A stretch of DNA of 64,000 nucleotides from Patiria pectinifera (taxonomy: Eukaryota; Echinodermata; Asteroidea; Valvatida; Asterinidae). Location: positions 33,159,366-33,223,365 of the forward strand of contig CM057135.1 of assembly GCA_029964075.1 (NCBI GenBank), given 5' to 3'. Made by a program: the position numbers and the translations under genes. Shown here one piece after another: positions 25,501-63,367 of this stretch (the stretch's first letter is position 1; every line of letters begins with the position of its first letter). The notes under the pieces were generated by a model. The model had not been told where the DNA came from, searched no databases, and saw only the letters and a list, made by a program, of their open reading frames with translations.

Positions 25501-28500
25501 AATCCTGCTTCAGGGCCAACATTTTTTACTTTGAAATAAGAGCTTTATGTGAATCTAATTGATATTGGGAAGACGATGAACAATGACATATTTACCTGGC
25601 AATCACCTCCAACTTTGTACAACGCCTCAATTTCCCAAAACAACATAAAACGGATGACCGCGTTGAATCTTGACAAACAATAGCATCACTTAACTAACTA
25701 TAACCAGTAGAGGGGGCTATAACACTTCTAAAAGAGTAGCTTAAGTGCTACAATGGATGACAAGTGATGGATTTTTTTGTATATGCCAGAATACTGGACC
25801 AAAGTGTGTGTACCAGATGTGCTACAATACTCGATAGAGGGTTAAGAATAATTACATGTGCTCCAATGATGATAATTATTGTTTTTACCACAATTTAAAG
25901 CGACTTGAAAGCAACGCATTCAATCTTTTGATTGTTAAGTATTTGGTGTTTGAATTTCTTTTGACACCATTGATGCCATGTTGACGCCATTTCTAAGGGG
26001 GAAAAACAATTCCTTTGCCGCCCTTTGGGTTGTCATTACCTGACGAGTCTGCATTCACAATTCTCGTAGATCTTCTTGGCTTTACACTCGATGGAACAGC
26101 CTTGGAGCGTGTACTTTTCATGATGTGTCAGAGTCTTCGTCTCGTCACATCTTCCCCACGGTTCCTCAAGGTTATTGTACTGAAAGAAAGAAATTACAAA
26201 TCGACAGTAAAAGTTTACACATATATACCGGTACACATGTACGCATCCGAACAGAAGCAGGCAGCTGCCGGTGTGTTCCGCTTTACTTGGAGATAATCAT
26301 GCAAATATCAGGGTTCGACCTCGCGAGAGGGGGGAAGGGGCAGCAAAAAAAAAGGAAATGGAGATGTGAAGTCATATTTGCTATTCGTTTAATAAACATT
26401 TAACAAAATGGGAGTCTGCAGGGGTGTCAATGGGGGTGGGGTGTGCATGTCCTGCTGCCCACCCTCCAAAAAATTGTTGCCAGTGAGAGAACAGTAATAA
26501 AAATTTTGAAGGGGGAATGTGCTTTGCCCCCCCCCCCCCGCCCCCAAGAAAAATCCCGAGGACGCTCATGACCTTAGCGGTAGCCCGCTTGCCAAATTCG
26601 AGTAAAAACAATGGCGGACTAGTCAAAAACATTCCTTAAGAAGAGTCCGCCTGGCGAGTCTAAATTAGTGTAAGTAACATTGTTGTTTATGACATTTTGA
26701 TGCAAACAATAAAAAATCTATTGCATCCTTGTGAAAAGGCCTGCGGACTAGATGAGAGTATGTTTCACTTGTCTGGCTGGCTAGTGAAAAAAGTTATTGG
26801 AGAACCCTGGAAAATGTTATGCCTGTAATATGCAACGGTCACTATACACGTGTCTTTCCAGCCTAGTGGTTGTGCGTAAAACCAAGGATTTATTGTGGAA
26901 TTTCGATTATTCTGTCCTATCGCCTTTCAAAATGATTGATTTTTTTAACCCTGGTTGGTACTTGGTACCTAGTTGGTATTTGGTACTTTGTAAAAAAAAA
27001 AGACTTCCCGAATCCTCTGCTGGCTTCCTACGTTGAGACAAGGAACACATAATCTGGATTTTGTTTGCGAAAAAAAGGATAATTAAGACAGGCCTCGAGT
27101 GTACCATTAAGACGATGGGCTCGCGAACACATTTTAGACCGCCTGAACTGAGCAATATATTATTAATGAAAAAACGAACCTCTCGTTTGCGTACACCAAC
27201 GAACGCGTGGACGCCAGGACCGATTGCGAACCCTTCCGCGTCGACAGAGGGCGGCGTTTCTTGGCCATGAACCAATACCTTCAGTCCGGCTTCCAAATTG
27301 CCCACCCGTACAGGTTCAGCGTATTCAGGCTGAGAATTGGAGGGAAACGAGTTGAGAGATAAGAGTTGCATGACAGCAAGTTTTGGAATTTGTTTAAGGA
27401 CCGACTTTTCATTAAAGAAAACTGTGATCTTAATTGATGTTGCCTACCTGCTGTATATCAATGATCATTCTCAGGCCGTTACCACTTCCCGGTTGGATTT
27501 GATGTAAGATTGGTAGGCGATTTCCATCCAAGTCTTCGCCGGAATTAAACGTCCAGCAGTTACCGAAGGAAGTAAACACGTGCGTGAAATTCTTCGGAAA
27601 AAAAATAATCAAAAGGCCTTGTTTTTAGGAAAATCTGTTATTCGCATCAAAAAGGGCCCCCATCCCAAGAGGTTGTAACTTTGTGTTGTGTTTTTAGGTG
27701 CATAGCTTTGAACAATTTTTTTTACATTGTAGCAAATATAAAATACTTTTACGTTCATTGTATAACACCGTAAATGTAGTAAATTCAATTCCGTTAGGGA
27801 TATTCGACGTATGGGCGATTTGTGTTATGAACTGTAAGTCAATTCAGTCCATGCAATTAGCTCTTTATAAGGACTCTTTATATTGAAACAAAAGCGATGC
27901 CGCACTGGCAGAAACGGAGGCTCTTTTCCTAATCTCAAGAACCCATCCCAGTGGCCGAAGAACCCATCCCGGTGGCTGAAGAACCCATCCCAGTGGCCGA
28001 AGAACCCATCCCGGTCGCTGAAGAACCCATTCCAGTGGCCGAAGAACCAATCCATTGTGGCTGAAGAGCCCATCCAAGTGGCTGAAGAACCCATCCCGGT
28101 GACAGAAGAACACACCCCAGTGGCCGAAGAACCATGATCTCGGTGTCTGAGGCCCAGTGGCTGAAGAACCCATCCCGGTGGCTGAATAATCCATCCCAGT
28201 GGCCGCAGAACCCATCCCGGTGGCTGAAGAACCCGTCCCAGTGGCCGAAGAACCCATCCTAGCGGCCGAAGAACCCATCCCAGTGGTCAAAGAACCTATC
28301 CGGCCCAGTGGCTCAAGAACCAGAACCCATCCCAGTGGCCAGGAGTACCTGTCCTAGTGGACAGAGAACCAGTTCCAGTGGCCGAAGAACCCATGTCAGT
28401 GGCCGAATAACCCACCGCAGTGGCCAAAGAACCCATCCCAGTGGCCGAAGAACCCATCCCTGTTGCCCAAGAACCCATCCCTGTTGCCCAAGAACCCATC

Positions 28501-30790
28501 CCAGTGACCCAAGAACCAGCCCCAGCGACCGAAGAACCCATCCACGCAGTGGCCAACGAACCCATCCCATTGGCCCGGAGAAACCATCCCAGTGGTCCCA
28601 GAATCCATCCCAGTGGTCGAAGCTTCAGTACATCTTTCTTTCAGCCCAAATGTGAGTCTTATTCCGGTAAATATCGTCAAAGAAAGCTCCGATCATGACA
28701 TCAAAAGAAAGACAACAAACGTCTATAACTTACATGCGCCTTGCAACTGTCTTTTTTCCCGCGCCATTTGCAGTCCATCAATGTGCGCTCGTCCAGTATG
28801 AATCCCGTGCGCTCAGTGAACTCCGTGTAGCTGAAGTTGGCGGCGGGCTCGTTTGGATTGGGCTCCTCGTCGGATGTCTCCGGGTCATCGTAGGTGTCGT
28901 AGTCGTAGTCGGTATATTCCAGGAGTACTTCCAGACTGGCCACATCTGCTTCAGTCAGTGCTGACAAACGGTATCTGAGATTAGATGGTGTATTAAAAAC
29001 AATTTACTCGATTGCTAATGACATAATAAACTTGAATAAATACAAATTATTAAATATTCTCATCATCACGGACTATTGTCAAAATTGAATTGTTTTGCAG
29101 TTGATTATTATCCGTCCTCTACACGTTGATGGGTACCAAACAAGAAGAACCAATCAGTCGTTAAAATCTTAAATTGAAACTAAATGGGTTTATTGTTTCA
29201 GAGAAACCAAACTTAAAGCACGTTTGCCAAAGCAAATGCCACGTTTTTGTTGTTTTTTTTATAGTGCAAATGACGATGAATACAATTGAGTGTTTGGCAA
29301 GTCTGCTTGCGGATCTCGTCGTCCTATTTGACAGTCGTTTGTTTTGTTGATTTGACATTTTGGTTATGGTCGTTTGCAGAGTCAACAATTGGCTTCAGTT
29401 GGGCGGTATTTACTTTTTAAATAAATATGTTATCAGATGGTCGCCGTCTCAATAAAAAAAAAATGAAAATAGTTAATTTTAAAGGCTCTTTGTGGTTTGT
29501 TTTTTCACGCCTACTTGTGCCGATTGCTGTTTGCTCCAGTAATCAGCCACTTAAAAACTATCCTGCAAAAACCCATACTAAATAGGCAGAAAGTACAAAC
29601 AAAGGGCTGTGCCATTTATTCAGCTGGTCAATATGCAAGGGCCAACTTAAAGGTAGTTGTACTATCTAAAGCCAAATAAATAACCTTGAGAAAGGGCTTT
29701 TTATACGAATTCTTTCCTATCCTGTCTGGAAAAATGATTATTAACGTACGATTGTCCGTTTGTAAATGAGTGCTATTTATCATGAAAAACATTTCCATAC
29801 ACGCAAATGAACCACAAACCCATTTTGTTATGAATGCAAAAGGAAAGAAGTATGGATTGGATTTTCAAAATCTGTTGATTAACACGAAACAAAAAGAAGA
29901 AAATTATTAATGTAAATGTAGTTTGGCTCTTAACCAATGGTATTCAACTCGCATTGCATTGCAGTAGCATGTGGAGTGGTGATCCACCATGTTGTCTAGA
30001 TTATGAAAGACTGAAATAGAAACCTTCCGTACAATTAGTAATATGGATACTGCTGTTGTTGTTGTCGGCCCTCCCAGGTCTTTTAGACATTGCAATGCTT
30101 TGAAGACTACATGATGAGTCTACCCAAGCATCGTTTGGAGCTTATGTACTGGTAGTTTACACGGGGCTTGATTTCCATGGAAGGAGTGCTTTTAGCAGCT
30201 AAATATGTTTCTGGAGATGGTAGATCGTGAAGGATTGAGGAAGGTTTATGCCTATAAATGCCCATAGCTCGGTTACTACGACCGACTCATTGGGGAGTGT
30301 TGCCTATCTTGGTTAGGATTTTTGACTCATGATCCGAGTGTCCTGCCGCCGGCAATGTGGGGAAGCCACTTGCCTCTGTCCACCCAGGAGTATCCTGCGA
30401 TGGACTGGCATCACATCCAGAGGGTACGGAAATATTCTCAGTCATTTCATGCCAAGGAAACCGGAGATAAACGCCGGACTGCACTGGTGAGCCATATATC
30501 GGCTCGTGAATGACCCACCTGTTGAAGTTGCAGATGGTCACGGCAGGGAAGTCCAGGTCCCCCACGTACTCCACCGACACCGCTGTAGTGGCATCGTACT
30601 TGAAGTACCGCCGGAACCGATCCGTGATCTGCCATACGCACACTCCGAGACAAACCAGCAGGATGGTGAGCCAGAGGAGCTTGACTAGGGCCCGGGAGCT
30701 CTCGATGACACGACCAATGCCGTGCAGGGTGGTCGTGGAGGCAAACTCCCGGTCCAGATCCGCCTGTTGCTTGCTTGCATCGTCTTTCAT
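22568..30790 (-). CDS. DEG/ENaC (ASIC-like) channel gene 2, complete, 9 coding exons, 493 aa
   Basis: Minus-strand exons: 30790-30519, 28974-28734, 27591-27448, 27329-27180, 26179-26040, 25046-24982, 24452-24269, 23109-23018, 22761-22568. All are GT-AG and join to 493 codons plus stop. HG motif at residues 23-24, TM1 about 36-55, FPAVTICNFNR 81-91. The exon 2 loop is very acidic (DYDYDTYDDPETSDEEP). FTSFGNCWTFN is in exon 3 and CECPVPCN at about 348-355. DIGGQLGLFLGAS has its filter at 441-443. Exon 7 is the shortest of the set (184 bp), trimming the extracellular segment before TM2. N-terminal sequence (DREFASTTTLHGIGR) pairs it with gene 5. A minisatellite fills intron 2 and a MITE sits in intron 7. 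An acceptor 9 nt before the ATG implies a non-coding leader exon. The 3' part was duplicated to 18.5-19.1 kb. Confidence 0.95.
23214..23468. mobile_element. MITE, 255 bp, TIR CAGGGYGAGTnAAAAAnnGCGGA, TA flanks
   Basis: The left end CAGGGCGAGTAAAAAAAAAG and the reverse complement of the right end (CAGGGTGAGTCAAAAAGAGC) match, and both sides are flanked by TA. The homologous stretch of the 18.3-19.6 kb duplicate lacks this insert, giving a natural empty site. There is no coding capacity. It lies upstream of exon 8 in an intron of channel gene 2. Confidence 0.85.
26400..26565 (-). repeat. C/G-rich interspersed repeat, inverted copy
   Basis: CAAAATGGGAGTCTGCAGGG then GTGTCAATGGGGGTGGGG corresponds, in reverse complement, to the CACCCCTGCAGACGCCCATTTTG region near 31390-31435. 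A long poly-C run is at about 26527-26540. It lies in an intron of channel gene 2. Confidence 0.6.
27930..28625. repeat. 21-bp minisatellite, core AACCCATCCCAGTGGC
   Basis: About thirty imperfect copies of a 21-bp unit fill most of intron 2 of channel gene 2. Because the period is a multiple of three, several frames on both strands stay open. They look like repeat proteins (plus strand EPIPVAEEPIPVAQ, minus strand GMGSSATGMGS). I treat these as artefacts: there is no conserved start, and the array sits between two well-defined exons. Confidence 0.93.
30285..30510 (-). repeat. Interspersed repeat in intron 1 of channel gene 2
   Basis: The reverse-strand sequence contains CCCTCTGGATGTGATGCCAG then TCCATCGCAGGATACTCC, a phrase found in widespread interspersed elements of marine animals. 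The open frame running from exon 1 through this block is read-through past the donor at 30519 and is not coding. Confidence 0.45.
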
Positions 30791-38420: not shown

Positions 38421-41400
38421 CTAAACTTGGGATAGTAATGTCATTTGGTTGCCGTTATCAATCCGCACACTTTGCAGAGACATTTCCGTCCTGTTCCGAC
38501 CTCGCTGCCGTTCCAACAAACGCCGGTGCTTGTTGAGCCCGCGCTTAATCCAAAAGTCGATCTTTTTACCAAAATAAGACAACATCTCCGCCAAGGTGAT
38601 GAAACTGGCTCCTAGAAACAGACCGAGTTGGCCGCCTATGTCACCTGGAAATTGTAAAGACAGAAGCTTTAAAAGAGCTTTTATCTCGAAATTGCTCTGC
38701 TTTCATCATGTTTTCTTAGTATCTTTTTAAGTTCCCTTAAAAGAAATCCAAATTCCAAAATGGACTCCGAGTTCTAAGGGGACACTTTTACAACGTCTGG
38801 AAAACCATTCTCAACCCATCATGATCTGTTTGCCATTGGCCCATACACCAGTGCGCACGAGTCAAATTGTTCTATATATACATTTTCTCCAATATTTGCC
38901 CAAGCGGTGAAATTTCTCCTATAGGATTCATGCCATTTTATTCTATCAGGATAAGCTTAAACTTCGTCAAACAATCGATCCAATTCACTTACTGATCAAA
39001 GCCGATGCAGTGATGGCCTCCGATTGCTCGTACCTTTCGTAGTTGATGTCTTCGTAGAACACATCCAACAATACCCCGTTTTTCCTAAACAGTAAACCCA
39101 GAAAGTTATAGAATGGACTTATAATTGTGAACTTATACCGAGCTGGAATGTGAATCCTTTCTGACTCCTCCCCAGGTTTGATATAGCCTATTCCACCATT
39201 AAACGCACGTGTCCACTTGATGTTACTTTTATGTTAATTAATGCGACCACTATAACTTCATAATTCAGGTCTGTTTTCTGATCTGATCTTATTAATTAAA
39301 CAAGTAATGATTAACCCCACCCTTTCAATAGACTGTTCCCGCCCCGCACATCGTGATTGGTTATTTTCAAATTGCTGTTTAGCTCTGTGCATGGACGGTG
39401 ATCGAACACACGATTATCAAAAAACTCACTCTTGTCTATAACAAAAAGTACACAAAATCATCAGTTTCCCATGAAGCTAACTTGCAAGCATTTCAACTGC
39501 ATAGGTTTTAAATACTCAACAGTACTTTCTCTCTCTTAACTGATATTTGCCAGAGACACTTTTGAATTCAGCAAAAATCGAAGCTCATCACTTACGAAGT
39601 TGTACATTCGTGTCGTGGCCTATTGCCATTTTGCAATAAAGGCTGGTTGCAGGCAAATAGTACCGTTGTGGTTTCATTTCAGGAGTTGGCTACCTGTCCC
39701 CATTTTTGAAGTCTGAATGAAAGTGGGGTCTGGGAACCAGATTACCGTTTCAAAACCACACCTCTTGCGTCTAGTGTATTCTTTTGGTAAAGTGCAATCA
39801 CACTATTTTGTCGTTCTCTTCACTTCCAACACTGAATTTAAGAAAATTCTTACTCTAAATATCCCTCCTCGAATAGGTCCGTTTGGTCCGGCGATGGAAC
39901 AGTAAAAGACGAATAGGAATAGTCGCTGGAGTAGGAATACTGCGCCTGCGCCATGGCCTGGAGGTCAGCGGCCACGCTGTTGCTAGGTATGGCGGCTGTG
40001 GAGAGCGAGGTGGTGAATGTTGAATAGTTACACGGCACGGGACAGTCGCACGGGTTATCCGTCCCGCCTACCAGGGTACCTGAAGACAGGTAAGATAACC
40101 AAAAAAACCCTGTAAAATAGCACAGGGATTAAATATATCGCGTTGCATTGTGGGACGGTTTGCGCTAACGAATTAGGCATTTTTTTGGGGGGGGGGGGTA
40201 GCGCAAAGAGTGTCCCACAATTCTAAATGAAATTGCGAAAACATCAATAGTACTTGCATCGGGTTAAACAACAACACATGATATCACACAACAGACATAT
40301 GATTACGTAATTTTATCAAAACGGGCCTATGAACAAAATAGGTATTATAAGATATGATATGCAGAATTACGTATGAAAATTTGACGGAAATCATGCAGTA
40401 TAAAAACTGTATTTTAATGTACGCATACATTATGTAATAACAAGTATATATTTACATGTATTGCTAAAAGCCTTTACAAGTCCAATTCAATTTAAAACCG
40501 GCAAGCCGTGTTATAGCGCATGGTTAACAAGAGAACAAGCATGAAAATCGAATGCTTGACATTGCAATAAACGGCAACTCAAGTCTTTCCCAAAATAAAT
40601 GCATCGCACTGAATTGAAACAAGAAAAGAAAGCCAAAAAGAAAAGAAATATGAACTTGATTAGTTTGATTACGTAGCACTGAGCATGTTGTAGATGTGGC
40701 GTTACCGGTGTTGCGATAAGCTGAAGTTTATATGATTGTTGCTACATTCTTGCATCTTGAAATCAAGAAACAATGTCGACTTACACATTCAATATTCAAA
40801 TGAAACACTGAGGACAGATTCACTTGGCGTTTTCCGCCAATTACAAATGTTCTTACCAAGGGCGTTCATTGCGCAGCCGCTGGTCTGTTGGGGAGAACAT
40901 TCAGTCTCGTTCCCTGGGTGTCTGAAATCAAAACACATGAATTTGAGTTTGACATGCAGTAGTATAAGTGTGATATATGAAACGGTCTGTTTATTAAAGA
41001 CAATGAAGAGACCGGGCTGTCTGCTGCCACCAAACGTTTGAAAACGCTCATCTATACTTGGCCCTTACCGTACAAGCCTGCAGTTACACTTCTCCAGTAT
41101 GGCCTTAGCTCTACATTCGGTGTTACATCCTTCTGCTGTGTAATGAGTAAATCTTGTCAACTTCTTGGAGGCATTGCATTTCCCGTACGGACGTTCCAGA
41201 TTTAGATACTGAATTTAAAAAACAAAAAGAAAACCAGAAAACCGACTTATTAATTAAAAGAAGAAGTTGCACTATTGGTTGCGGTTACGTTCAGTGTTGT
41301 AACTTTGAATTTAGAAGTTCTTGTTTGGCAAAAAACATGATATACTTTCAATTATCGCTAAACGGTGATTGTACTGCAGTGTATAGGCATATAGCGGCCT

Positions 41401-44037
41401 AGGAGAGACTATTTGTAAGATATCTTTTTAAAGAAAATGTTGTGCTCTCCGAGCCAACGTTATGGTTTATGTACAACAAAAAGCATCAAATAGAGCTAGG
41501 TAAGTACTACACGCAAGAGACAGGCATTTATCATGAGTTAATTTTGGGGCTCAGAAATTGTCAATCGTTTATCGAAGAACTGTCTACCTGTTGTTTTCGT
41601 ACACCTATAAATGCATACACGCCGGGTGAGATAGCAAGCCCTGCTGATTCTACCAAGGGAGGCGTCCCTTGATCGTGAATTAAAACCTTCAGCCCTGCAG
41701 GGATGTTACCGTCCACCGTTTCCGTGTATTCGCTCTAGGGTAGACAAACAAAAGTTCATGTGAGAAACAAACGAACAGACAGACGATCTAGACACAAACA
41801 TTTTTTGAAAATGAAAAATGCAGGATGATCAACCCACCAAGGCAAATTCTCTATTATTGTACCTCTGTCTTGAATACTGTATTTTCATTGGGCTTGAACG
41901 ATCACGTGTTAAGTTTGTAAAAAGACATGGTGCACTACCTGTGGGATGTGTGAGCCATGACTTTGTGCCCTGCCTTTTTATCGTTGGTACCCACGCTATT
42001 TTACCATGTGTTTACGCATGAGTGGGAGCAGCGAACTAGCAGACGATCAGCTGTTTCGAGCAAGCTACATGCATGTGAGTTGACGTCCGATTGTCATGAT
42101 TGTTGCATTTATTGTTGTTTTTTCGTGACCTTTGCATCAAAATCAAAAGAATCCAAGACAGAGGTATAACAAAACAATTGTTGACTGCAGTGATGTGGGA
42201 TATGACGTTTCGCCTCCTGTGCTATGTGCCCCTCGGGTGTTCAAAAGTCCTATCCCACATTACAGCATTCACCAATTCTTAATTCGTACCTGTTGTATAT
42301 CGATAAGCATCCGAACCCCGTTGCCGCTACCAGCCTGAGTCTCTCTCAGGATCGGTCCGGTTTTCCCCGAGTTAAAAGTCCAGCAGTTGCCAAAGGAAGT
42401 AAAGACGTGAGAAAAGTTCTAGAATTCAGATAAAAAAATAATCACTGACTGTCAGAAAATACATCTCAAGAACTAAATCTCCCATAGAGATCTGGTACAT
42501 ATTAATCCATAAAAAGCCAAGGTCATGTTACTTCACTGTAAAGATGAAATCTTTAACTTTTCTTTTTTGCAACAGAGCGGATGGAACAATTCTGGTATTG
42601 CAGTGAGTACAAGTCTTCTTAAAGGTACGTCTTGTTTGATTTGTGAAATTATAGTTGTTAAAAACAACAGAGAAATAAAGAAAAAAGAGTATAATACCAT
42701 GTTCACTTCAAACTTACCGCGGGCGAACAGCTTTTTGTCTTTCGTCGCCATTCGCATTGACGTAGGGTGACGTCATCCATGAGAAAGCCCGCCCTCAGCG
42801 TGAAGTCCGTGTAGTTGAAACTCGTGCCGTTGACCCCGTCCTCAGAAGTCACGTCCCAGTAGTCCATGCCGGCCTGGCTGTCGCCGAACGAGTCGTAGTC
42901 GTAGTCGTTTGCCCAAATGATGTAAGGCAGAAATGTTTTGTCACTCTCTGTCAACGCACTTTGTCGATACCTGCAAAAAAGGCGATGCAAATTTGTTATT
43001 TTTTATCCATAGAGAAATAAAGGAAATATTTGTACATGTTATATCCATGTATTAAAGCAATGCGTTTAATCTGTAGAAAAAAAATTCTTTCCAAAGCCGT
43101 CCAAAGGGGTCGCACTTCTGATATGGTTACATTCCTCCAGCAACCGCTCTAAGGGTACACCCCTGTAAATAGGCCCAAAATCCATCCGCCGAGCTCAAAA
43201 TATTCTATATAAGAGAGTTCTGAGAGCCATGGAATTGGGGAATTGAAGAAATATGGCAATGAACCTCTGGCCCGGACTTGTGACTTCCGATTCTGAGCAT
43301 TTTGGATGCAATTGGGCCCGAAACTGACGCTATTTTAGCCATGTTGTGGAGGATCGTTTTTCAATATGGCTACTTTTCCGCTTTGGGAAAAATAGGGGTC
43401 GTCTTCTTTTGGTGAGAATTTCTCGAAAAGTTAAAGGTCAAACCACTATAAATTGAAATAAAAATGAAAGATGACATGTTGATCATCATTTTTCTGGGCA
43501 GCCTGAATACCTGTGAGAGTTTAGCACTGGTGTCTATGGGAATTTTGATACAGGGGTGCACCCCAAATGTACACGGACGCCATCTTGGTATCTGAACCCC
43601 GACGGCCAAAATAATTGCTATAAAGGCTATACCAAACCATCTTTTCTGAACCCATTGTAACACAATTGTAAGATGTACACAAAATAGCCGTGGAGTAGAA
43701 TAAGGAATAACACTGGCGAAGGAAAATCGGTTGCAACCTTTGGTACAAGGTTACAATACCTGTTGAAATTGCAAATGGTCACCGCCGGGAAGTCCATGTC
43801 CCTGGTGTACTCCACCGATATCTCGGTGTTGGCCTTGTACTGAAGGAACATGTAGAACCGGTCCGAGATTTGCCAGACGCAGACGCAGAGACAGGTCAGC
43901 ATGATGACAATCCAGACGGTCTTGACCAGCAGCTTGCTGGCGTGAAACACCCGGGCGATGCCGTGAAGGCTGGTAGACTCGGCAAACTCCCGCTCCAGGC
44001 TGTGCTTATCTTGAGCCGGTCTTGTCTCGTATGTCAT
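38421..44037 (-). CDS. DEG/ENaC (ASIC-like) channel gene 3, complete, 9 coding exons, 517 aa
   Basis: Minus-strand exons: 44037-43760, 42970-42718, 42418-42290, 41734-41588, 41208-41069, 40921-40857, 40079-39854, 39084-38993, 38644-38421. All are GT-AG; the join is 517 codons plus stop. HG motif at 25-26, TM1 about 39-56, FPAVTICNFNR at 83-93. The exon 2 loop reads NDYDYDSFGDSQ. CDCPVPCN is in exon 7, followed by an unusual Ser/Tyr-rich segment (QYSYSSDYSYSSF). DIGGQLGLFLGAS has its filter at 455-457. The cytoplasmic tail is the longest of the complete copies and strongly basic (KHRRLLERQRGRNR), ending in SQV, which fits a class I PDZ ligand. An in-frame ATG 138 nt upstream (44175) is less likely because its N-terminal extension has no counterpart in the paralogues. 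Exon 1 is nearly identical to that of gene 4. Confidence 0.95.
43240..43555 (+). repeat. Diverged dispersed repeat, copy B (partner 34200-34545)
   Basis: Lies inside intron 1 of channel gene 3, in the opposite sense to the gene, and is alignable with the intergenic copy 9 kb away. Confidence 0.55.
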
Positions 44038-46427: not shown

Positions 46428-49400
46428 TTAAGTCGAAGTTGTCACAGCGGTGCTTAGTTTACGTTCATCCTGCGGTCTGTTAGGAGGCCCGTGAATCCAT
46501 ATGTTCATCTTCCTGCCGAGGTACGAGAAAATCTCGGCCAGAGTGATGAAGCTTGCTCCCAGGAAAAGACCCAGTTGGCCGCCTATGTCGCCTGAAATGT
46601 AGCAAATAAAACCCGAAATGTTCATTTTGAGTCCAGCACCGTTTTCTTATGGCCCAAGGTACACTACAACCAAGAATATATCACATAATTCTGTAGATGG
46701 ATGGCCTTGTCCCGTGGACTATAAAATGTTAAACCAATTTAGCTTAGTGGACACCATTAGTTAACATATCAAGTATACTTTTTTTTTTATCTAAATCAGT
46801 TATAAATTTCCGCATAATTTATGAAACTCATGAAACCACAGCGCGCACGTGGCACAGCTTATCGTACGGCGCATGCGCACGCTCCGTGAGGCCCATGGCC
46901 TCCTAGGTGCAGGTTTTCTTTTGTGTTTCTAAGTTTCTAAAGAAAACTAACATCTTACTTATCAATGCCGATGTGGTTATGGCTTCCGTCTGTTCGAACT
47001 TCTCGTAGTTGAGGTCCTCATAGAATATATCTAGTGAGATCAAGTTGTTCCTGCATAAAAAGTCACCACAAATTACGATGTATTTGCCAATAAGATGTTG
47101 CTTTAATAACTCGAAGCTTTTATTTTTGTACATTTGTCAGAAATACTTTGAAAGCACTGTCAGTACTTTCATGTAATAGAGATTTTGTGATGTCCTGCAT
47201 CCTTAAGTACCTTATGTACTCTCCAACTTTGAAGACTGTCTCGGACACGTTCAGATTGCCGTCCTCCTCGCCCCAGGATGCGGGGTCGTCGGCGTATGAA
47301 GTTAGCGACGCCATTAGCGGGATAATCTTCGCGTTAGGTATGAATGCAGTGGAGAGAGTGGTGGTGAAGGATGTGAAGTTACAGGGAACGGGGCAGTTGC
47401 ACGGATATGGATCAATATCTCCACTCATCAGATCAGCTGGACAGAGGAGAGAAAAGCAATTGCATCAGTTCATACAACAAGTGGAAGAAAGGTCTTCTAT
47501 GCGGGGCGCTGTGGTCCATGGTACATGGGTTCAAACCCTGACCGTGGGAACATGGTGCTTGTGCTCTTGAGCAAGGCACTTTGCTTCGTCCTTCGGATTG
47601 GACGTAAAGCCGTAGGTCCCGTGTGTTATGTAATGCACGTTAAAGAACCCAGTAACACCCATCGCTAAGAGAAGGGGTGTGCCCTGGTGTTTCTGGCAGT
47701 GGCTGCAATATGCGCCGTAGCACCTTGTAAACCATTATAAGGTGCAACATAATGGGTCTCATATTTCTCATAAAATTTATTTACCTTTCTTTAATAATTC
47801 ACTTAATTACCAGCGCCGTGAGTACCTAATTGTACGCTATATAAGACTCCGTTATTATTATTACGTGTTATCCCAAGCTTGTCAAAAGAGGACGCACTGC
47901 AAGATGGCCGCATGCATTCGACCGCAAATTTGTATCATTTCAGTAACAATTTTCATTATTTTTTGGTAATAAATCTTTTTTGTTATCTCACTCACCAATA
48001 GTCTTCTTTGCACAGCCGTTTGCTTCTTTGGGAGTACATTCAACTTCGTTTCCTGGGTGCCTGCGAAGTTGAAAGATACTTCAACTGAGCCATCGGCACC
48101 ATAATGTAGTAAAGTCACTCTGTCTTCAACATTCGTAATATTACTTTATAATCATATTAATTGCTTGTTTCTCTTCAATTTTTTACAGGATCGTGATTGC
48201 ACCTATCGACAATAATACCAAACATTTTTTTTATTCAAATCCTTACTGGACCAGCCTGCAATGACATTTTTCCAGAACCACATCTGCTCTGCACTCAATG
48301 TTGCATCCATCGAAAGTGTAGCTATCAAATCTCTTTAGCTTCCTTGAGGAGTCGCATTTCCCATAGGGGGGCTCCAGATTCAAGTACTGCAAGAAAAGCA
48401 GATGTTTATTTCCAGGATGATAATTATGCTCTCTAAACTGTAGTGATATTCTTCTATGTATATACAGACAATGTTATCTGCTTTGTCTTTAAATACTTGT
48501 GGAATTTGAAATGTTTTCATTTTATTTTCTTCAACCCATCATCGTCTTGCGATATTGCTGCAACAGCTAGGACATTGTGATAATCATTTGCCAACAAAAG
48601 TCTTGCCCTCCAGACAGTAATTGCACCGTCTGTTGAGCATCGTTCAAACAATTTGAAAGCTTGTTGTTTCAAGAATGTGCATGTATACCAGAAGGGATAA
48701 ACAAGATGAGATCTACAAGCGAAATTTGACAAAGCTGACAGATTACTGGGCCCGATAAGATAGCGATTACGATATAATTTACAAACATTACTGATCCTTG
48801 TGTTGCTGTACACTGTGAGTCCTATAAATATTTACCTGATGTCTTTTAACAGCCATGAAGGCGTGTACACCTGGTGACAAGGCTAGTCCTGAGGATTCCA
48901 CCATGGGTGGGGTACTTTGGTCGTGAACTAAGACCTTCAAGCCAGCTTCGTCGTTCTGGGTTTCAGTGTATTGAGACTGGGTATAGCAAAGATATCAATT
49001 CACATTATGGTTTTTAGACATTCATCAGAACAATCTTACATTCGATGGATTGGGAATATAATTATGGAATAAGAAGGGACTCATGCAATGAGTAACGGCA
49101 TACCTGTTGTATATCAATATACATCTTCAGTCCGTTCCCGCTTCCTGGGTTGGTTTCCGTCAGAATTGGGCCCGTTCTGCCTGAGTTGAAAGTCCAGCAG
49201 TTTCCATAGGAAGTGAACACGTGTGAAAAATTCTACAATGAAAATAAAGTGTCATATAATGTCATTCATGTCCACCATAACTACAGAAGTCAAAACTGAG
49301 GTGATGCAACGCACACGCGCAATTGGCAAGCATTAATTTTAAAGCTGTTTTTGGCAACTTGGCCGAAACAGCTCTTGGTGGTTTTTTTTGCCCTTATCTT

Positions 49401-52400
49401 TTTCAGACTCCACTCCATAGCTTTCGTACTCTTTTACCCATATAGTTTGGCACTATTGTAAACTTGATCGACTTCAGATTTAGTACACACTTAGACCACT
49501 ACCTGAAGATGTATGCCGAAGATTTCCATTATGATGACGTCATCAGGCGTCAAAGTACGTCTTAATAAAGGTATTACAGGCATTTTTCCCCATAAGGTTT
49601 GTACACGTTTTACTATACACTTTGGCACTTTCATAAGGGACGCATTATAGGTAAATATTGAAGTGACGTCATCACAAGTCATGTGACGTCACATTAAATG
49701 AATGTATTCAAATGTCTGTACTACAGAATCATGGTTCCGATTAGGTTGTAACTTGATATGTATATCGGGATGTGTTATAGGTGCAAGTCATCTCGTCATG
49801 GCGTATCACATGTCATGTGGCGTCACACTTAAGGGTGCATTTTTCTTAAGCATGTATTTTAAGAACTGTGTATCCGATATGGTTGTAACTTGATAATATG
49901 TACTTAAACCGGGAAGTGTTATCAATTACCGCAGCGGAGCAGCTGTTATCCTTTCCTCGCCACTGGCAACCGCGCAGTGTCTTGTTGTCCAAGAGGAATC
50001 CCGCCCTCAGCGTGAACTCCGTGTAGTTGAAGTCTGACGACAGGTCGTCCTGGAACATGTCGTTGTTCACGTCGCTCTCTCCGTACGGGTCGTAGTCGTG
50101 GTCGTTTATTGACCAGATATGGCGGAGAACTGCTTCGTCGCCAGGGGCCAACGCGTCCTGACGATACCTGTAAAGAAGTACCACTTAATAATATTGACAC
50201 AATCATGATTCTACGAACAAAGCTTCTCGGGAGGGGATGACTAAAAAATACCAATTAAACCAGAATTCAAAAGTGTTGGTTGCGAGGCATATGAATAATT
50301 AATTAGCCATAATTCCAAAACCCTATAGTCATGAAATTTCTTGGGTATGTTCATGATGAGTTGCTCTATGCATGTATCGAGTGGGGTTTTTTCGTCACTC
50401 GATGACCGAGATCTTAGGGGGGGATTCCGCCCCCGGCTGAGAGATGGTCAAAACAACCCGGCCCTTTTAGGGTTAATTGACTTAAACGCAAGGAAACTAC
50501 AGGCGTATGTACATCGAGAACAACCCTACTCCCTAGCATGATTACTAGGAACCATACCCATCCTGGCAAATTCTAACAACATATGGAAAACTGCACACAC
50601 ATATTTGAGTGGTAGGGCACAACCCCACCACTCTTTGGATTTGTTGCAATTAATTGGCTTTTCCGCAAAGTTGCGGAAAAGCCTTTGTTTTTGTTCTCGT
50701 TTTTTTTTTTCTTTCTTCTTCTTCTTCTTCTTCTTTTTGTTCCACTTCAAATGCCATTGACTTTGTGCACGTTTTTTCTCAGTGCCACTTTTGGCATTAA
50801 TCTTTGCCATACATCATTCAAACTTAGCGTAAGCATAGTCCCTATAGCAAAGATGTGTCCCGAAGATTGACGTCATGGTGACGTCATCGACTAATTTATT
50901 ATAGATTTTTGAATATTTAATTTTTCCCATAGACTTTGTACACAGAAATTTAAAAAACCTTGTCGCTTTTCAAAGGGCATTTTTTACTCTTTGCCAGTAA
51001 TTCATTTACACCAATCTTTGTCCAAGCAAAGACCCTAATTTAAACAACATTGTGTAATGATGACGTCATGATGACGTCATCCGGTGTTTATTTATAGGCA
51101 ATTAAATTGTGACACTTTTAATATTCAAAATGCATAAAAATCAACCGTACGCGTCCGCAGCATTCTGTTGCCGGCAGGTGCTAGAATAGGTTGAGGTCTT
51201 TATTTCATTCAGTGTGCGTGAAATCACGTGACCCTTGCTTCCGGTCGAAAAAGGCCAAAACCGGAAGTGGCTTATCATTTGAAAGTGGTAATAGATATAA
51301 ACTTGCTTTCAACGGTGTTAGTCTCTTGGCCAATAGTATTCTTCAAATCATCTACCGATGACGTCATGCAATCTTCGAGCGCCCTCTAGCGACAGGTTGA
51401 AAATTAGCAAAATGTATGTTTAATAGAAGTCTGTTGCGAAGTTTGTCGTAATCGCCTAAATATTGGTGTATATGTTGACCTTGACCCACTTAAGACGTGT
51501 GCGAATTTTTAGGCAAATGACGTCATCAGACCGGAAGTTATAATAAAAGCCTTTTTTTCATTTGAAAATTCCTGTAAAATCAACCATGGCAGTTTTTATA
51601 TTTGTTTTTACTTTAATTGTCGAATGAAGGGTAGGTCTAAAACATTTCAAAGTTTCGAGGCGATAAGCGAACTCGAACATACCCTGCACACGCTTAAAAC
51701 TTCACGTTGACAATACCTCTGCTTCAAAACATGCACATAACAAGACGTCCACAATGTACATGTACATGCACGTACGTTGTACATAGGCACATACATCGTA
51801 TGTCAGTCAGCCTGCAGCGCACGTGTTGCTGAGGGCAAATCGTGTCCACAGTGACCGTTTTAGCCGATTTTCGGCTAACTTTGACAGATTTTATGTTCCT
51901 GCATGCGCATAGACAGGGACGTATTATAGCACTCTTGGCATTAATCTTTTTCAGATATCATTGAAAGTTGGCATAAGCATACTCCCTATAGCAAAGATGT
52001 GTCCCGAAGAGTGACGTTATGGTGACGTCATCAAGTGATTTATTATGGATTTATGAATAATTAATTTTTCTCATAGACTTTGTACACAGCTTTCTCCACA
52101 AGTATTTCCCTATACAACACTGATATATCTTACTGAGCAGTTCTGAACTTCGGCTGAGAATTACTATGAGATGGAAAAAGAAATCGTATTTTTTTACGCC
52201 TGTCATTTGATTGAAAATATTCCCAAGAGTTAGAATAGCAAGTAATATTTTATAAACATGTTTCAGTTTAAAGGAAAATCACGCATTTAAAGGTGCAGTT
52301 TTTCTGATGTGGGATTTTAACCTATTGACTTTGTACACGTTTTCAAGCCACCATTTTCATAACTTGGCGATCTGGAATCGTCATCAAAGTTACAGCCAAG

Positions 52401-55400
52401 GAAGACCCTCATACAAAAATTATGCCAAGACAATGACATCATGATGACGTCATCATCAAGTGATTTATTGTGGATTCATGAATAATTAATTGTTCTCATA
52501 GACTTTATACACAGCTTTCTCCACAAATCTTTTCCTATACAACACTGATATTTCTTACTGAGTAGTTCTGAACTTCGGCCGAGAATTACTATGAGAAGGA
52601 AAGAAATCGTATTTTTACGTTTGCCATTTGATTGAAAATATTCCCAAGAGTCATAATATCAAGTAATATTTTATAAAAATTTTTCAGTTTAAAAGCAAAT
52701 AACGTATTTAAAGGTGCAGTTTTTCTGCTGTTGGGTTTTAACCCATTGACTTTGTACACGTTTTCAAGCCACCATTTTTATACCTTGGCGATCTGGAATC
52801 GTCATCAAAGTTACAGCCAAGGAACACCCTCATACAAAAACTATGCCAAGACTATGACGTCATGATGACGTCATCACCTATTTTTATTGATTTTGAAAAT
52901 TTACGTACATATTATGAAGTCTTATATCTACAGAAATGTAAGTCCGATTGGGTTGAAACTTGGTATGTGGCTATACCAGGATGTGTTATAGATTTAAATG
53001 AGGTGACGTCATAATGACGTCATCCTGAGATTTTATATGAATATTTTTGTGTGTGACCTTTTAGCCATATCTCCCGAACGCAACATGCAAAATGCAAAAT
53101 TCTTTTTTGCATTTGGTCTGTTATGTAATAGCTATTCGCCCAAAACTTGAAAAATGTGTGACGTCATCATGACGTCATTAAAATGCGATTTTTCAAAACT
53201 CATATAAGGAAAGGTCCAATTGTCATGAAACTTGGTGGGTAGGTAGTTAATCATACTAGTATGCAAAGTTCGAAGTGACGTCACGATGACGTCATCGAAA
53301 AATTTAAAAATATTTGTCGATTTTCAAAGTGCCTTTTTGACTCTTTGCCAGTAATTTATTTAGATCACTCTTTGTCCAAGCAAAGACCTTGTACACACGC
53401 ACATACATCGTATTGCCGAGGTCAAATCCTGTCCACAGTGACCGTTTTAGCCGATTTTCGGCTAACTTTGACAGATTTTATGTTCATGCATATTCAGGGC
53501 ATATTATTGATTAAAAAAAATCATAATGCGGAAAAGCCCTATGTTCTGTTGCAAACAGACATAGATCTCTAGTCTTTCTTTCTTTCTTTCTTTTTTTTTC
53601 CGGACAATACTTCTCCGCGGATTTTCTCTTAAATGGTATATGGTATGAACTTGTAACTTTCAATATATATCGACCCTCATCCGAAGTGGTGCATATTACT
53701 CTGACGTCATGATTATGTCATCAGGTGTCAAATTACAAGTGATTTTAACTGAAAAAGTGACCAAATACTTTCACTTATAACTCTTGAACTAAACATTCAA
53801 TGATGTTTGTATTCTGTAATCAGATAGACCATTAATCGCTAAACATTTTTTTGCCGTGTACGTGAACTCGCTTGACCGTTACTTCCGGGTCTACCGGAAG
53901 GTCAAAGTTAAAAGAATTCAAAATGAAGACGTAAGCCTGAAATCAAAACAAAGCAACATTTCTTCCGAACGGTTCACGGTATGATCACAAAACCTTGTGT
54001 GAACTTGTACCTTGTTACGAAGATGTTATAATTTTTGTTACGTCATCATGACGTCATCAGGTATTTAAGGGCAAATTTTGACAAAATAGTTTGCGTATAT
54101 CTTTTGAACTAAATAGAGTATCGTGTTCGTTTTTTCGTGAGGTTGTAGACTATGCCGTGAGGAACATTTCTTGTCCCCAGATACAAAACCGCTTGACCTT
54201 TACTTCCGGTGTTACCGGAAGTGCAATAAAAACTGAATATAGCTCAAAAGCGGAAGCATTTTACTACAGACACATATATTATAAAAGTGTTTAGTGAGGA
54301 ATGCCAGACACAAAAACAGTGTGATGGCGTCATCATCCGGAAGTCAAAGTCGTTTGACCTTTCCTTCCGGGGCTGCCGGAAGGTCAAAGTAAGGTGAATT
54401 CAAAATATAGAAATTAGCCTCAAATAAAAGGAAAACAAGATTTCTTTCCATGACCGAATGAAAACGCGCCTCACCAGTTTTCCTCTCATATCTGAATGCT
54501 GAAATTAATATTTCCACAGCGTGTAGCCACAAACATTTCTGTACATATGAATTTGTTACCCCCACTTTTGTTCACTTAAATTTACAGTTTAAATCTGGCG
54601 CGCAGAGTACCACACAGAGGTCCAGGGCTACATAATCGGATTAACGCTGGCCCTGTGTGGCTGTGCGTTCAACCCTAAAATGTGGCCCGGCACATTCCAT
54701 TCATAAAATGGTTAAAACAAACCTATACATGACAATGTACATATAGGATTTGTGCACATATCGATGCGAAGGTATGCCTAATAGTACAACTTCTTGTCCG
54801 ATTTTGTCAAACTTGATGTAAACATCTTATTTCATTTTTGCATTCTTCAAGAAATCTGACGTATACACTAACGTGTATATGCATATAGATATCCTCCCCA
54901 CAAACAAAATGGTACAGCCCAATAAACAAGTGCACGTTCTTTCCATCACAAATTTCTATAACTGCCTTGAAGTGAACAGTATTCAGATCCAAAATTACAT
55001 TATTTTAAAATGAAATTAACTCCTAAAAAGACCACAGTTTTAATGCCAGATAACTGATTTACAAATGGATAGTTTTTAAATGTCTTATCTAAAGTAGAAT
55101 TGGGGAAAACGTGTCTTGAAAAACAGGTGATTAGCAGAGTCCAAGATCACGAGACACGTGGTAAGCAATGATACATTGATGTAAGTCTCGAACGATGCCT
55201 TATCGATCGAAAGTTGTCATTGGCCACTTTTTTTCTTTGTGAAAAGTACGGTGGTTTTTTTCAACCAATCATAATAAGTTTAACATGTAAGGAAAGAGGA
55301 GGAGCTAAGCTATTCGATTCCGTTTACCCCCACGCAATTCGATACTCTAGTCAGGAGTTACAGTCAAAAGAGTCGACGCGAGGGCGCTCAATCGGTGCGT

Positions 55401-56546
55401 TTACACTGGAAAATGATGAAAAGTTCACATTTTCAAAGCCGAAATTACGGGGATTTTTTTCAAGATAAAAAAAAATAACATATACCATGAGAAAGAGAAA
55501 GAGTTAAATTGTACAGAACCGTTTACCCCCATTGAAAAAGACCGCATGGTTATCAAACTATGACTCGAAACATCGAAAAAAGGGGGCCTTTTACCGGGAT
55601 TCTCGCCCGGAAACGGGCCCGCACAGAGGTTTGAGCTTAAGTGAACACAACAAATTCATATGAAAGTCAGTGCAGAATTGTATTATGCCCATGCAAAAGA
55701 AAAAAAATAAAAGCCATTTTATGATATGATTAGCATATGTTGCATAAACTCCAACGACGTAAGAGGCTCCGGCAAGTCTACCAATAGTCCCAACTGGTTG
55801 TATGCTTGAGTAGCCATCCATGTAGCACCAGATGTGCGCTTCCTGGTAGGCCTACAAGTCTTGTCGAGGTAAAGCAACAAGTTAAACTGCAGGTTGTGTG
55901 ATTTTCTTTGTGAAAAAAACACAGGGTAATGGATGCAGGGTAATGGGAGGGTACAGTGTGCAGTTCAATTATGATTAAGCCATTGTAAACACAAGAAAAT
56001 ATGCCAGCCCGACCACTCTGCGTTTGTAACTCAACAAACGCGAACCTCTAGTTCTGAATTTGATTCTGGAGGTGTGCCAACCCAACGTAAAAGACTGTCA
56101 GTTTAGGGGTACTGTACCCATTCTCACAGATTCCAACAAAATATGCATGCCGTTGGGGTTTGATAGGTTGAGTTCTGTAATCGTTTCAGCATCACGTCAA
56201 ATGCGTGCACGCAGACGCGGAAAGGATTGGCACGGCAGGATCGGAAAACCTAAAAAAAAACCTACCTGTTAAAGTTGCAGATGGTGATCGCAGGGAAGGG
56301 AAGATCCCCGACATACTCCACTGAGATTTGGGTGTTGGCCTTGTACTGAAGGAATCTGTAGAACCGGTCCGAGATCTGCCAGACGCAGACGCAGAGACAG
56401 GTCAGCATGATGACAATCCAGACGGTCTTGACCAGCAGCTTGCTGGCGTGAAACACCCGGGCGATGCCGTGAAGGCTGGTAGACTCGGCAAACTCCCGCT
56501 CCAGGCTGGGACGGGGAGACGGATCCTCGGGGTCCGGTGTCGTCAT
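46428..56546 (-). CDS. DEG/ENaC (ASIC-like) channel gene 4, complete, 9 coding exons, 491 aa
   Basis: Minus-strand exons: 56546-56266, 50167-49930, 49232-49104, 48976-48836, 48386-48247, 48060-47996, 47436-47211, 47050-46959, 46591-46428. All are GT-AG, joining to 491 codons plus stop. HG motif at 26-27, TM1 about 40-57, FPAITICNFNR 84-94. The loop NDHDYDPYGES is in exon 2, CNCPVPCNFT in exon 7, and DIGGQLGLFLGAS has its filter at 449-451. Exon 5 ends LVQ where its paralogues have LVR. Intron 1 is 6.1 kb and carries a modular repeat dense in TGACGTCA; a SINE sits in intron 6. An acceptor 9 nt upstream of the ATG implies a leader exon. Exon 1 is almost identical to gene 3's, while exons 2-9 are clearly diverged. 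Confidence 0.95.
47501..47864 (+). repeat. tRNA-derived SINE, second family (intron 6 of channel gene 4)
   Basis: The 5' part looks tRNA-like with B-box-like GGTTCAAACCC. The body contains CTTGAGCAAGGCACTTTGC and CACGTTAAAGAACCCAGTAA and ends GCTATATAAGACTCCG followed by ATT repeats. The head and the AAGGCACTTTG block are shared with the other SINE family, but the middle differs. Confidence 0.75.
49500..54400. repeat. Modular repeat rich in TGACGTCA palindromes (mostly intron 1 of channel gene 4)
   Basis: About twenty TGACGTCA or near-identical palindromes occur in under 5 kb, often as pairs such as TGACGTCATGATGACGTCAT. Examples are near 49536, 49664, 50870, 51060, 51360, 52025, 52450, 52858, 53006, 53160, 53277, 53702 and 54042. 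Each tends to follow a module like CCGATTGGGTTGAAACTTGG...GGATGTGTTATA. Palindromic CTTCCGG...CCGGAAG hairpins recur near 51240, 53882, 54202 and 54363. A hairpin GGCTTTTCCGCAAAGTTGCG marks about 50655, and GCGGAAAAGCC recurs at 53527. Exon 2 of gene 4 (49930-50167) lies inside the affected zone. Confidence 0.75.
52026..52875. repeat. Two-copy tandem duplication, period about 425 bp, within the TGACGTCA repeat
   Basis: TCAAGTGATTTATTATGGAT, TTCTGAACTTCGGC, AATTACTATGAGA, CCATTGACTTTGTACACG and GCGATCTGGAATCGTCATCA each occur once in 52026-52450 and again in 52451-52875, in order. The copies are highly similar, so the duplication is fairly recent. Confidence 0.9.
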
Positions 56547-59565: not shown

Positions 59566-62500
59566 ATGGGTGGAACCGACACCGACCCGGACCGGGAGTT
59601 TGCCGCCTCCACCACCCTCCACGGTATCGGTCGGTTGGTGGAGAGCTCTCGGGCTTACTTCAAGTTGGCCTGGCTCGCCATACTGTTGACGTGCCTCGGC
59701 GTGTGCATCTGGCAGGTCACCCTCCGATTCCAGGCCTACTTCAAGTACGAGGCAAACACTCAGATATCGACGAAGTATGTCAGTCATCTTGAATTCCCCG
59801 CCGTTACCATATGCAATTTCAACAGGTAACCACTGGTTTGGATTTCGTCCGTCTCAAGTATAGCCAGATTGTTTCGGTCTTAGACGGAGAGGTTAAGTGT
59901 GACACAAAGAAAAATTCTGGTCAGGACATACGCCTATACTTCGGAAAAAGAAAAGGAGCGGACCTGAATATTATCCATCGGATAATAGTGATATTAGTAA
60001 CTGATGAATACCCATAAAGCAAAATGAAACATGGACGTAAAAATAATGTTTCAGTCTTTATTTAAATGATTAAAATCTCATTTGCATTCGAATGTTTTTA
60101 TGTGATCTGCGTATGGTGTACTGCGCAATTTTGGCGGCAACCCAAGCATGCAGTCATTTTTGTCTCAGCCTCCAACGGACAAACACGGGATTGAAAACGT
60201 CTCCAAAATTTTGTTGAAACGTCCGGAGAAGTTCGTTATTTCTTTTGGCCTACATTGTGAATCCTCTGGATATATCCATGTGAATAAGGACACGCAATTT
60301 CAGCATCGATACAACTTTGTTTTTCTCCACCGTTATAGCTGCCAGTGGACAGCTAGAAAAATTGAATTTTTTTAGTAAAACGTGCGTCACTTCCGAAAGC
60401 ATGGATCAATTTCGGTAATCTCTTCTTTAGACGAGTGGAAAAACATGCTCGTTTAAGGCATATACTTCATTGGTATTTCAAATTGGATATATTTTAAGAA
60501 AACAATAGTTAGGATTGATTTCTTTTTCACTCCCCCTGTATAGCACCGAGGAAGGCATTTGTCATCGTTTTTTTACCACATTGGTTTTGCCTCGTTTATT
60601 TATTAGATACCGTCAGTCGGCCATCACACCCAACGAGAGTGCCTGCCTGAAGTCCCTCATCTCGATGAACGACTACGACCACCATGGCTTTTTTAGTTCC
60701 TACTCGTACTCCGAGGACGTGAATCCATGGGACTTCCTCGACTACCACCAGCAACAGAGTGACGTGGGTAACGTGGACTGCAGTGAATTCAGCTTCACCG
60801 ACTTCACCAAAAGAACTGGCTTCATTCTCGACGAGGACACCCTTCTGACTTGCAACTGGCGCGGGAGGAAGGGCAGCTGTTCCGCAGCTGTAAGTTGAAA
60901 TAAACTGATATCCACCCTTGAGGAAATTCAGTCCCTTTCTTCTTCTTTTTTTTTGGGGGGGGCGAGTTCCTCCGTCTTAAAGTGCATTTGTAATATTTAA
61001 TGATGAAAAACTGAAATTTTGAGCTTACTCTTTAACTGTGCAGCAAATAACTTCGACTCAGTTTCCCACACTATTTTTCCCATTTCTGCTAAGCGAATGT
61101 GACTGGATAATGCTAAGAAAATAAAGCAAAATAAGACTTTTCTTTAATATAGGCTTAACATTCCTGCTTATTGTGTACAATTGTATACAATTTTGCTTAT
61201 ATATATATATCCCTTAAAGTGGTCTTGGAATTGCTATCGTTCAAACCTGACTTGTTGTTTGTTTTTCTGAACTTTGTTCGTGCAGGATTTTACACACTCG
61301 TTCACTTCCTTCGGAAATTGTTGGACTTTCAATTCGGGTAAGAATGGCGCAGCCATCGTCTCGGAGTCATTGCCAGGGAGCGGGAATGGTTTGAGGGTGC
61401 TCATAGATATACAACAGGTACGGATTTTCGCGCAAGTGTTCAGTTGTCTATGAGTGTGACAAGTTAAGAATAGGCCTGGGATCTAATGACGTCACGCTTT
61501 ATTCACATGTGCGCTTTCCTATGTGGTAGACGGTCCCTTCTTTGTCTGGCGTCCTAACTTCGCTCCCTTATAGGACAGTGCATAAATATATATATACACG
61601 AAGCCATTATACGTCATCAAGTCTCAGGTTTTTTTTGTTTTATTGATTCCCCTTACTCGTTCATCATTCATACAGTTTTGCGAAATAAAAAGAAGAGTTC
61701 AATAGAGATCCGAAAAGAACTTTCTTACGCTCGAGAATTGAGAAAATTGAGAGTAAATTTGTCTCTTTTTTCAACTATTCGCTCTTTTCACGCTCCGCCA
61801 GTGGGCATGCAGAGCCTCGATCTGGCAACTTTACACAATAAAAATAGCCGGTTTAGTGATCTGAACCCCGACATGAGAATCACTGACCCGGCTATAGGCC
61901 TATTTATTGTGTAAAGTTGCCAGATCGAGGCTGTGCATGCCCATGACAGAAGTGTGAAATAAAAGAGCGAATAGAACCAGATCCAGCTACAAACATCATG
62001 ACAGGACAACAACAAGTAATTTAATAAGGCATGCTTGGTCTGACACAACCATTCTCAGTAGTACATTTCAAACGATGTTTAAAGTTTTGTGTGTGATTTA
62101 ACAGTTCATTTTCCTCCGGTAACGTCTTCAGCCTTCAGCTTCATTTAAGTAATATTGCCAGCTTTGCTTCATGCTTAATTTCTTATGCTGCTAATGCAAT
62201 TTTAAAATAAATATCAAGAGCACTTCTTTTTTTTTATCTCGTCTACCATTCACAACAAGGCTTGAATCATTTCAAATTTGCCACTCAAATTTTCATGCGA
62301 TCGATACTGAAAATATTGCTTGTTACCATCGGAATTACAACCCTCATTTTTTTTTTTGAATTACAGTCTGAGTATACGGAAACTCTGGAAGGTAACTTTG
62401 AAGCTGGTCTGAAGGTGGTGATCCATGACCAGGGCACCCCGCCTGCTGTCGACTCGGCTGGTATGGCCATACAGCCGGGTGTCCATGCCTACATCGCAAC

Positions 62501-63367
62501 TCGGGCATTGAAAGTGAGTACCAACCGTGGGGGGATGTCGCAACCTCCCCCCCCCCCCCACCCCCACCTCCGTTTAGTCGCTGACTAATGGTATGAAACT
62601 ATAGTAAAAAGGGGCCAAAATAATAAGTGGAATGCTAAAGTTCCAAAATGTATCATCTCATTTTGCCTCAGAATTTAGGAATTTGTTTTGTTAAACATTG
62701 AAGCCTTATTTCCTATGAGACGAACCCACTGTCGTCGCTTGGAAAAAAAATTGTAGTTTTGATGCGTTGATTTAGTAGTGGACATTTTTGCTGCCTCGTT
62801 GCATTAAACATGTTATCTGGTTCATCAACTCGTACCTTTATACAAACAGTACGAAAATCTGGAGCCGCCATGGGGTGAATGCGACGCGTCCAAGACGCTA
62901 GAAAATCAACAGGCATACACCATGGAGGGATGTATGTCAGAATGCCGGGCCAGGCTGGTCTATAAACACTGCAACTGTAGACTTGTCAGGTACGAGAGCT
63001 GTGTTTGGGTTGCAATACGATCCTAGCTACTTATACTGTAATCATGCTTTAGGTCCATTTCATTTTGTACTTCACATTGAACAAATGCGTCTAACGCTTG
63101 AAAGAGGTTTATCAGGATTATTGGTCTTTTAGCTTGTGTCATTTTACGTTCATGTCTTTGTTCCTCTGCAGTATTTCTATGGACCCCATGAATCAAAAAA
63201 GTTGTTTTAAATTCCTGTCGCTATTTTATCTTCTTCTTTTTTATCGTACGCATAATATACACGGTTTTTAAGCAAACCAAATCTCATTCTTTTATGTTTT
63301 AGACATCCTGGAAAAACAGTTGAATGTACGGTTGCTCAAACGAAGGACTGCGGCATGAAAATACTGG
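59566..63367 (+). CDS. DEG/ENaC (ASIC-like) channel gene 5, partial (first 6 coding exons; 3' end outside the window)
   Basis: Exons seen: 59566-59825, 60607-60889, 61286-61417, 62367-62513, 62850-62989, 63303-63367, all GT-AG and in frame for 342 codons. By comparison with its paralogues, exons 7-9 (the CxCPVPCN segment, the 92-bp exon and TM2 with the GAS filter) should lie beyond 64000. HG motif at 19-20, TM1 about 33-52, FPAVTICNFNR 77-87. The exon 2 loop is the longest of the set (283-bp exon) and has histidines, NDYDHHGFF. Exon 3 begins DFTHSFTSFGNCWTFN. It is closest to gene 2 at the N-terminus. Whether the gene is intact cannot be judged from this window. Confidence 0.92.
61776..61974. 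repeat. Long inverted repeat (foldback), about 75-bp arms
   Basis: Left arm: CTATTCGCTCTTTTCAC ... GGGCATGCAGAGCCTCGATC then TGGCAACTTTACACAATAAA. Its reverse complement returns at 61896-61974 with few mismatches. The loop is about 40 bp. It lies in intron 3 of channel gene 5; a transcript would form a long hairpin. Confidence 0.9.

Follow-up and report, generated by a model that had tools for sequence, protein, structure and literature searches.

Probable interlocus gene conversion over a short tract of exon 1 in two adjacent and otherwise strongly diverged channel genes

The locus described here raises a simple question: how can two neighbouring paralogs, which have diverged almost to synonymous saturation in most of their exons, remain nearly identical over a part of one exon? 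The window, i.e. the whole 64-kb stretch of DNA that was analysed, holds five acid-sensing/ENaC-type channel genes with a common exon plan (five copies of exon 1 were found, with the later exons arranged in matching order). Genes 3 (coding exons 1–9, 38424..44037, minus strand) and 4 (coding exons 1–9, 46431..56546, minus strand) are adjacent, face the same direction and have their first exons 12,506 bp apart. Genes 1 (11542..18166, plus strand), 2 (22571..30790, minus strand) and 5 (exons 1–6, 59566..63366, plus strand, no exons 7–9 being seen before the window end) were used as comparison paralogs. Exon cores were placed by eye from translations, and at splice sites they may be offset by a few bases from the true exons. 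In gene 3, exons 1–9 occupy on the minus strand positions 43762-44037, 42715-42969, 42290-42418, 41588-41731, 41071-41208, 40858-40923, 39853-40071, 38991-39086 and 38424-38645; in gene 4, also on the minus strand, they occupy 56268-56546, 49927-50166, 49104-49232, 48836-48973, 48249-48386, 47997-48062, 47210-47428, 46957-47052 and 46431-46592. Intron 1 is about 6.1 kb long in gene 4 versus about 0.8 kb in gene 3. Exon 8 of gene 4 (46957-47052, minus strand) has no GT donor where the other genes align, and an in-frame GT found 3 bases further on may serve instead.

Translations of exons 1–6 matched the Pfam profile ASC (PF00858) with 241.6 bits for gene 3 (E 2.3e-71) and 242.6 bits for gene 4 (E 1.1e-71), the curated cut-off being 23.6 bits, and by this match both genes are predicted members of the DEG/ENaC superfamily. 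The Pfam run covered genes 3 and 4, and the family placement of genes 1, 2 and 5 is given by their exon-by-exon matches to these two. The closest solved relative of the gene 3 model is ASIC1 (E 8.1e-75, top of 30 PDB sequences), with the alignment spanning model residues 17–377 and 415–502. In sequence, genes 3 and 4 resemble the acid-sensing channels of the DEG/ENaC group; their gating stimulus may be protons or another one.

A preliminary description of this DNA had reported a single mismatch in 142 bp between 43861-44002 of gene 3 and 56367-56508 of gene 4 (both minus strand). Ungapped alignment reproduced this core block exactly, with the only mismatch at position 43870, which is synonymous (CAA/CAG) and leaves 132 bases (43871-44002) of uninterrupted identity. 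The same description had high identity continuing beyond the block through the TM1-coding part: the similarity does extend to 43825, but TM1, as placed by eye, already lies inside the 142-bp block and the additional 36 bp encode residues immediately downstream of it. The full tract (43825..44002 in gene 3, 56331..56508 in gene 4, minus strand in both) comprises 178 bp with three mismatches, the other two of which share one codon at 43851 (ATG/AGA), so that the copies differ by 1.7% (3/178 bp; 95% interval 0.4–4.9%). With labels borrowed from the ASIC literature, we read the product of this tract as the N-terminal region that carries the LHG motif, followed by TM1 and a short run of residues.

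Both ends of the tract are sharp. Similarity is lost immediately at 44003, and the start-codon end of gene 3 exon 1 (44003..44037, minus strand) has only 12 of 36 aligned bases in common with gene 4 (33%). From 43824 on, the exon has 63 bp left, i.e. its last 21 codons (43762..43824 in gene 3 and 56268..56330 in gene 4, minus strand), and here identity drops to 70%. Self-comparison of the window gave 91% identity over 246 bp for the first exons of genes 3 and 4 and 69–73% for the nine other pairs; within the tract, genes 1, 2 and 5 are 63–66% identical to gene 3 or 4. Exon 2 proteins of genes 3 and 4 share 51% of amino acids over 79 codons, i.e. about half as noticed before, and the C-terminal tails beyond the conserved GDIGGQLGLFLGASFITLAE stretch differ, again in line with the preliminary description. 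Thus, two otherwise near-saturated paralogs share a sharply bounded tract of low divergence within an exon.

Such a picture might be produced by an assembly artefact, if reads or gap-fill of one exon 1, perhaps from the other haplotype, were put into the other gene. The length of the tract is about that of a short read, and three differences in 178 bp are compatible with a heterozygosity of 3.2–4.2%, a value given for lancelets in PMC12500494 that may not be the host's. However, each copy has distinct flanks on both sides, the reading frame is uninterrupted and each first exon is closed by a GT donor. The two sequences are not exact copies, the window contains no N, and misplaced reads would have had to align to a diverged exon. 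We consider the artefact improbable.

Uniform divergence after one duplication had been held insufficient for this contrast, and the exon-by-exon comparison indeed rejects it: synonymous divergence in exon 1 is not equal to that in exons 2–9. For pair 3–4, the tract has pS 0.04 (1.5 synonymous differences per 42.3 sites) and Ks 0.036, against pS 0.66 and near-saturated Ks 1.57 in pooled exons 2–9, which are 50–75% identical. The 21 codons that close exon 1 are likewise near saturation (pS 0.71; 10.0 differences per 14.0 sites). Exon by exon, Ks equals 0.34 for the whole exon 1; among exons 2–9 the lowest values are 0.78 (exon 6) and 0.83 (exon 2), and the highest reach saturation. These counts omit the final codon of exon 2. 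In exons 6 and 8 the opening codon probably takes in the acceptor AG, which slightly lowers divergence outside exon 1 and therefore acts against the observed contrast. Synonymous divergence is thus low inside and high outside breakpoints that lie away from the exon ends, which is the pattern characteristic of a conversion tract.

Duplication of the whole exon was tried as a candidate and rejected, since its last 63 bp are near synonymous saturation and comparison of intron 1 and 5′ flanks of genes 3 and 4 gave only chance-level matches (13–23 bp, E 0.06 or worse). Self-comparison of the window found no intron match between these genes at E 1e-6.

The first exon is compositionally special in the whole cluster. 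Its GC3 is 0.77–0.82 in the five genes, above every later exon listed for the same gene, and its pS is below that of the pooled later exons in 10 of 10 pairs (0.46–0.60 versus 0.70–0.83 in the nine pairs other than 3–4). This generally lower pS matches the high GC3 and looks like a compositional effect, which leaves the tract unexplained. The high GC3 itself could stem from a 5′ GC gradient or from GC-biased conversion. One may suppose that purifying constraint on DNA, imposed by a regulatory or RNA element in exon 1, preserved the tract since the duplication, and the peculiar composition of the exon would suit this idea. Yet the same tract has pS 0.45–0.56 in the nine other pairs, identity stops abruptly within the exon, and the RNA fold is ordinary in either copy (z 0.02 and 0.21). 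High GC3 may explain generally lower pS, not the identity of 54 out of 55 codons at degenerate positions with the same residue. For pair 3–4 the corresponding counts are 7/15 downstream of the tract in exon 1 and 113/216 in exons 2–9; in the nine other pairs, 42–66% of such codons are identical in the tract. Constraint on DNA is therefore barely credible as the source of the tract.

Two narrower candidates were discarded as well. Codon bias failed because encodings resampled with exon-1 codon usage gave P of about 2.5e-16 for one differing codon or none. A structured RNA in the tract was dismissed on the folding z values given above and on the lack of Rfam matches at gathering score in the window.

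Conversion was assessed by a GENECONV-like fragment permutation test over polymorphic sites, run with our own script and not with the GENECONV program. It was applied to exons 1–6 of five genes and exons 1–9 of four genes, with nucleotides and third positions, and to exon 1 alone with nucleotides. For pair 3–4 the score of the best fragment was reached in 0 of 601 permutations in both multi-exon sets and in 0 of 5000 for exon 1 alone. This fragment coincides with the tract if mismatches are allowed, or with its mismatch-free part if they are not, so that the test is positive at the region where conversion had been suspected and identity between the paralogs is raised relative to permuted sites, as is typical of interlocus conversion. 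The tract signal was confined to pair 3–4 among 10 pairs. With exon 1 alone, the lowest other pair was 1–2 (102/5000, uncorrected); in the multi-exon sets, among 56 rows for other pairs, eight fell at 22–49/601 (uncorrected) and the remainder were higher. Nucleotide scores were 67.0–91.1 for pair 3–4 versus 7.0–12.2 for those eight rows. The earlier alternative of conversion or a very strong constraint on codons can thus be narrowed: the Ks contrast and the permutation test support its first branch, while the second is disfavoured by 54/55 versus 7/15 identical codons and by the lack of conservation in the other three paralogs.

The donor could in principle be a third paralog located elsewhere in the genome, which gave the tract to both genes 3 and 4. 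That would also be conversion, and the five family members considered here are those seen within the 64-kb window only. It needs, however, two events versus one, and over the tract the other three paralogs of the window reach only 63–66% identity with gene 3 or 4, which makes an outside donor very improbable.

Gene 3 groups with gene 4 in trees built for the tract, for DNA of exons 2–6 and for protein of exons 2–6 (supports 100, 97 and 83, respectively), while the tree for the 63 bp at the 3′ end of exon 1 does not pair them (weak supports 55 and 63). The two genes are probably true sisters. Since the same pairing is obtained in the tract and in exons 2–6, the case for conversion rests on the contrast in depth and not on a conflict of topologies. 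At the synonymous mismatch CAA is present in gene 3 only, while genes 1, 2, 4 and 5 have CAG; at the other variable codon, AGG as an ancestor of ATG and AGA would need one step per gene. Both patterns may polarise changes that followed the event, not the direction of transfer.

Most probably, the 178-bp tract represents a short non-reciprocal transfer by interlocus (non-allelic) gene conversion between adjacent paralogs 3 and 4. One paralog would have suffered a break in exon 1, repaired with the same exon of its neighbour as a template. About 140–180 bp would have been copied, replacing the recipient's codons for the N-terminal gating region and TM1 with the register preserved, and the exon start, last 21 codons, splice site and neighbouring intron of the recipient would have been left untouched. 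We infer an origin in recombinational repair, either as one recent event or as the latest of several, and fixation in the species. The residual difference, with its interval, implies that the tract is young compared with the duplication; in a lancelet, it would be similar in size to the variation between alleles (3.2–4.2%).

The initiation of such an exchange deserves separate discussion. According to PMC3924818, conversion proceeds mainly above 80% identity, with a low rate below this level, and in yeast and rodents the minimal processing segment measures close to 200 bp. The present flanks of the tract (33% and 70%) and the other exons (50–75%) lie below the identity usual for homologous repair. 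Poor present homology means that either previous conversions had kept the exon similar or copying took place by another mechanism. Repeated conversion since the duplication and low-homology template switching would each solve the initiation problem, and the data favour neither. Nothing points to older and wider conversions, as the edges are sharp and divergence in the remainder of exon 1 is ordinary. The poor adjoining homology suits low-homology mechanisms, so that template switching, or a short piece of exon 1 being inserted or duplicated, should be considered in place of ordinary homologous repair. Insertion, however, would lengthen the sequence, while the tract is in register and genes 3 and 4 have equal length both within it and downstream of it in exon 1; on balance, this group of mechanisms is unlikely. 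The likelihoods attached here to conversion and to its rivals overlap, as template switching and a third donor also imply copying, and they are not intended to sum to one. A further, rather doubtful idea is that repeated and selectively retained conversion kept the gating N-terminus and TM1 of both subunits alike, while their extracellular domains diverged to saturation. This would amount to concerted evolution of paralogs limited to one domain, at identities well under the usual limit, and joint assembly of the two subunits might be the reason.

Interlocus conversion is a process of known kind, and what is unusual here is its occurrence between genes whose other exons are 50–75% identical. 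The closest parallel is provided by tandem sodium-channel paralogs of salamanders (Nav1.1, Nav1.2 and Nav1.3), for which PMC8476164 reports short exonic tracts detected with GENECONV, from 56 to over 626 bp long, both between paralogs and between duplicate exons. Their exon-1 tracts of 64, 93 and 128 bp carry 0, 5 and 5 differences, and the length found in genes 3 and 4 fits this reported range for tandem channel genes. That study (PMC8476164) differs in dealing with another channel family and several species and in having reads across the break points of one duplicated exon, while the present data come from one assembly. Allelic non-crossover tracts of Branchiostoma floridae have a mean of 99 bp, with 90.9% being shorter than 200 bp, although these lancelet values, taken from PMC12500494, may not be the host's. 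According to a review (PMC3966223), adjacent and moderately diverged paralogs convert via local segments of high identity. Its example of fog-2/ftr-1 in Caenorhabditis elegans resembles genes 3 and 4 in adjacency, and the tract there enters a 77%-identical region, but overall Ks of that pair is 28% (PMC3966223), versus near-saturated 1.57 in exons 2–9 of genes 3 and 4. In titles and beginnings of abstracts, with subscription papers outside the scope, no conversion among DEG/ENaC genes was found, which is weak evidence of its absence.

The locus offers a clean case of conversion over a short distance, bounded by two breakpoints within one exon of ion-channel paralogs that are otherwise near saturation. 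Trees or dates based on exon 1 of such genes would mislead. If the tract is real and recurrent, one may ask how exchange starts between such diverged neighbours and whether a common TM1 serves joint assembly.

Several other features of the window were registered. Just downstream of gene 1 and on the opposite strand, positions 18358-19574 (minus sense) contain a partial second copy of the gene 2 3′ end (exons 8 and 9), with 75.6% identity over the main 640-bp match; its exon 9 appears frame-shifted, and the copy is probably a relic. A 21-bp minisatellite array with long open frames on both strands occupies 27884-28585, between exons 2 and 3 of gene 2, and intron 1 of gene 4 contains several repeated blocks (50786-53491), most pairs of which are 88–94% identical. 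Two copies of a dispersed repeat (11883-12182 and 45104-45411) are 86% identical and presumably resemble a tRNA-derived SINE; ARAGORN found no tRNA in the window. Palindromic stretches at 36491-36975 and 61775-61974 are each 76–77% identical to their own reverse complement. Finally, open frames at 1780-3851 (minus strand) look by eye like an F-box/leucine-rich-repeat protein.
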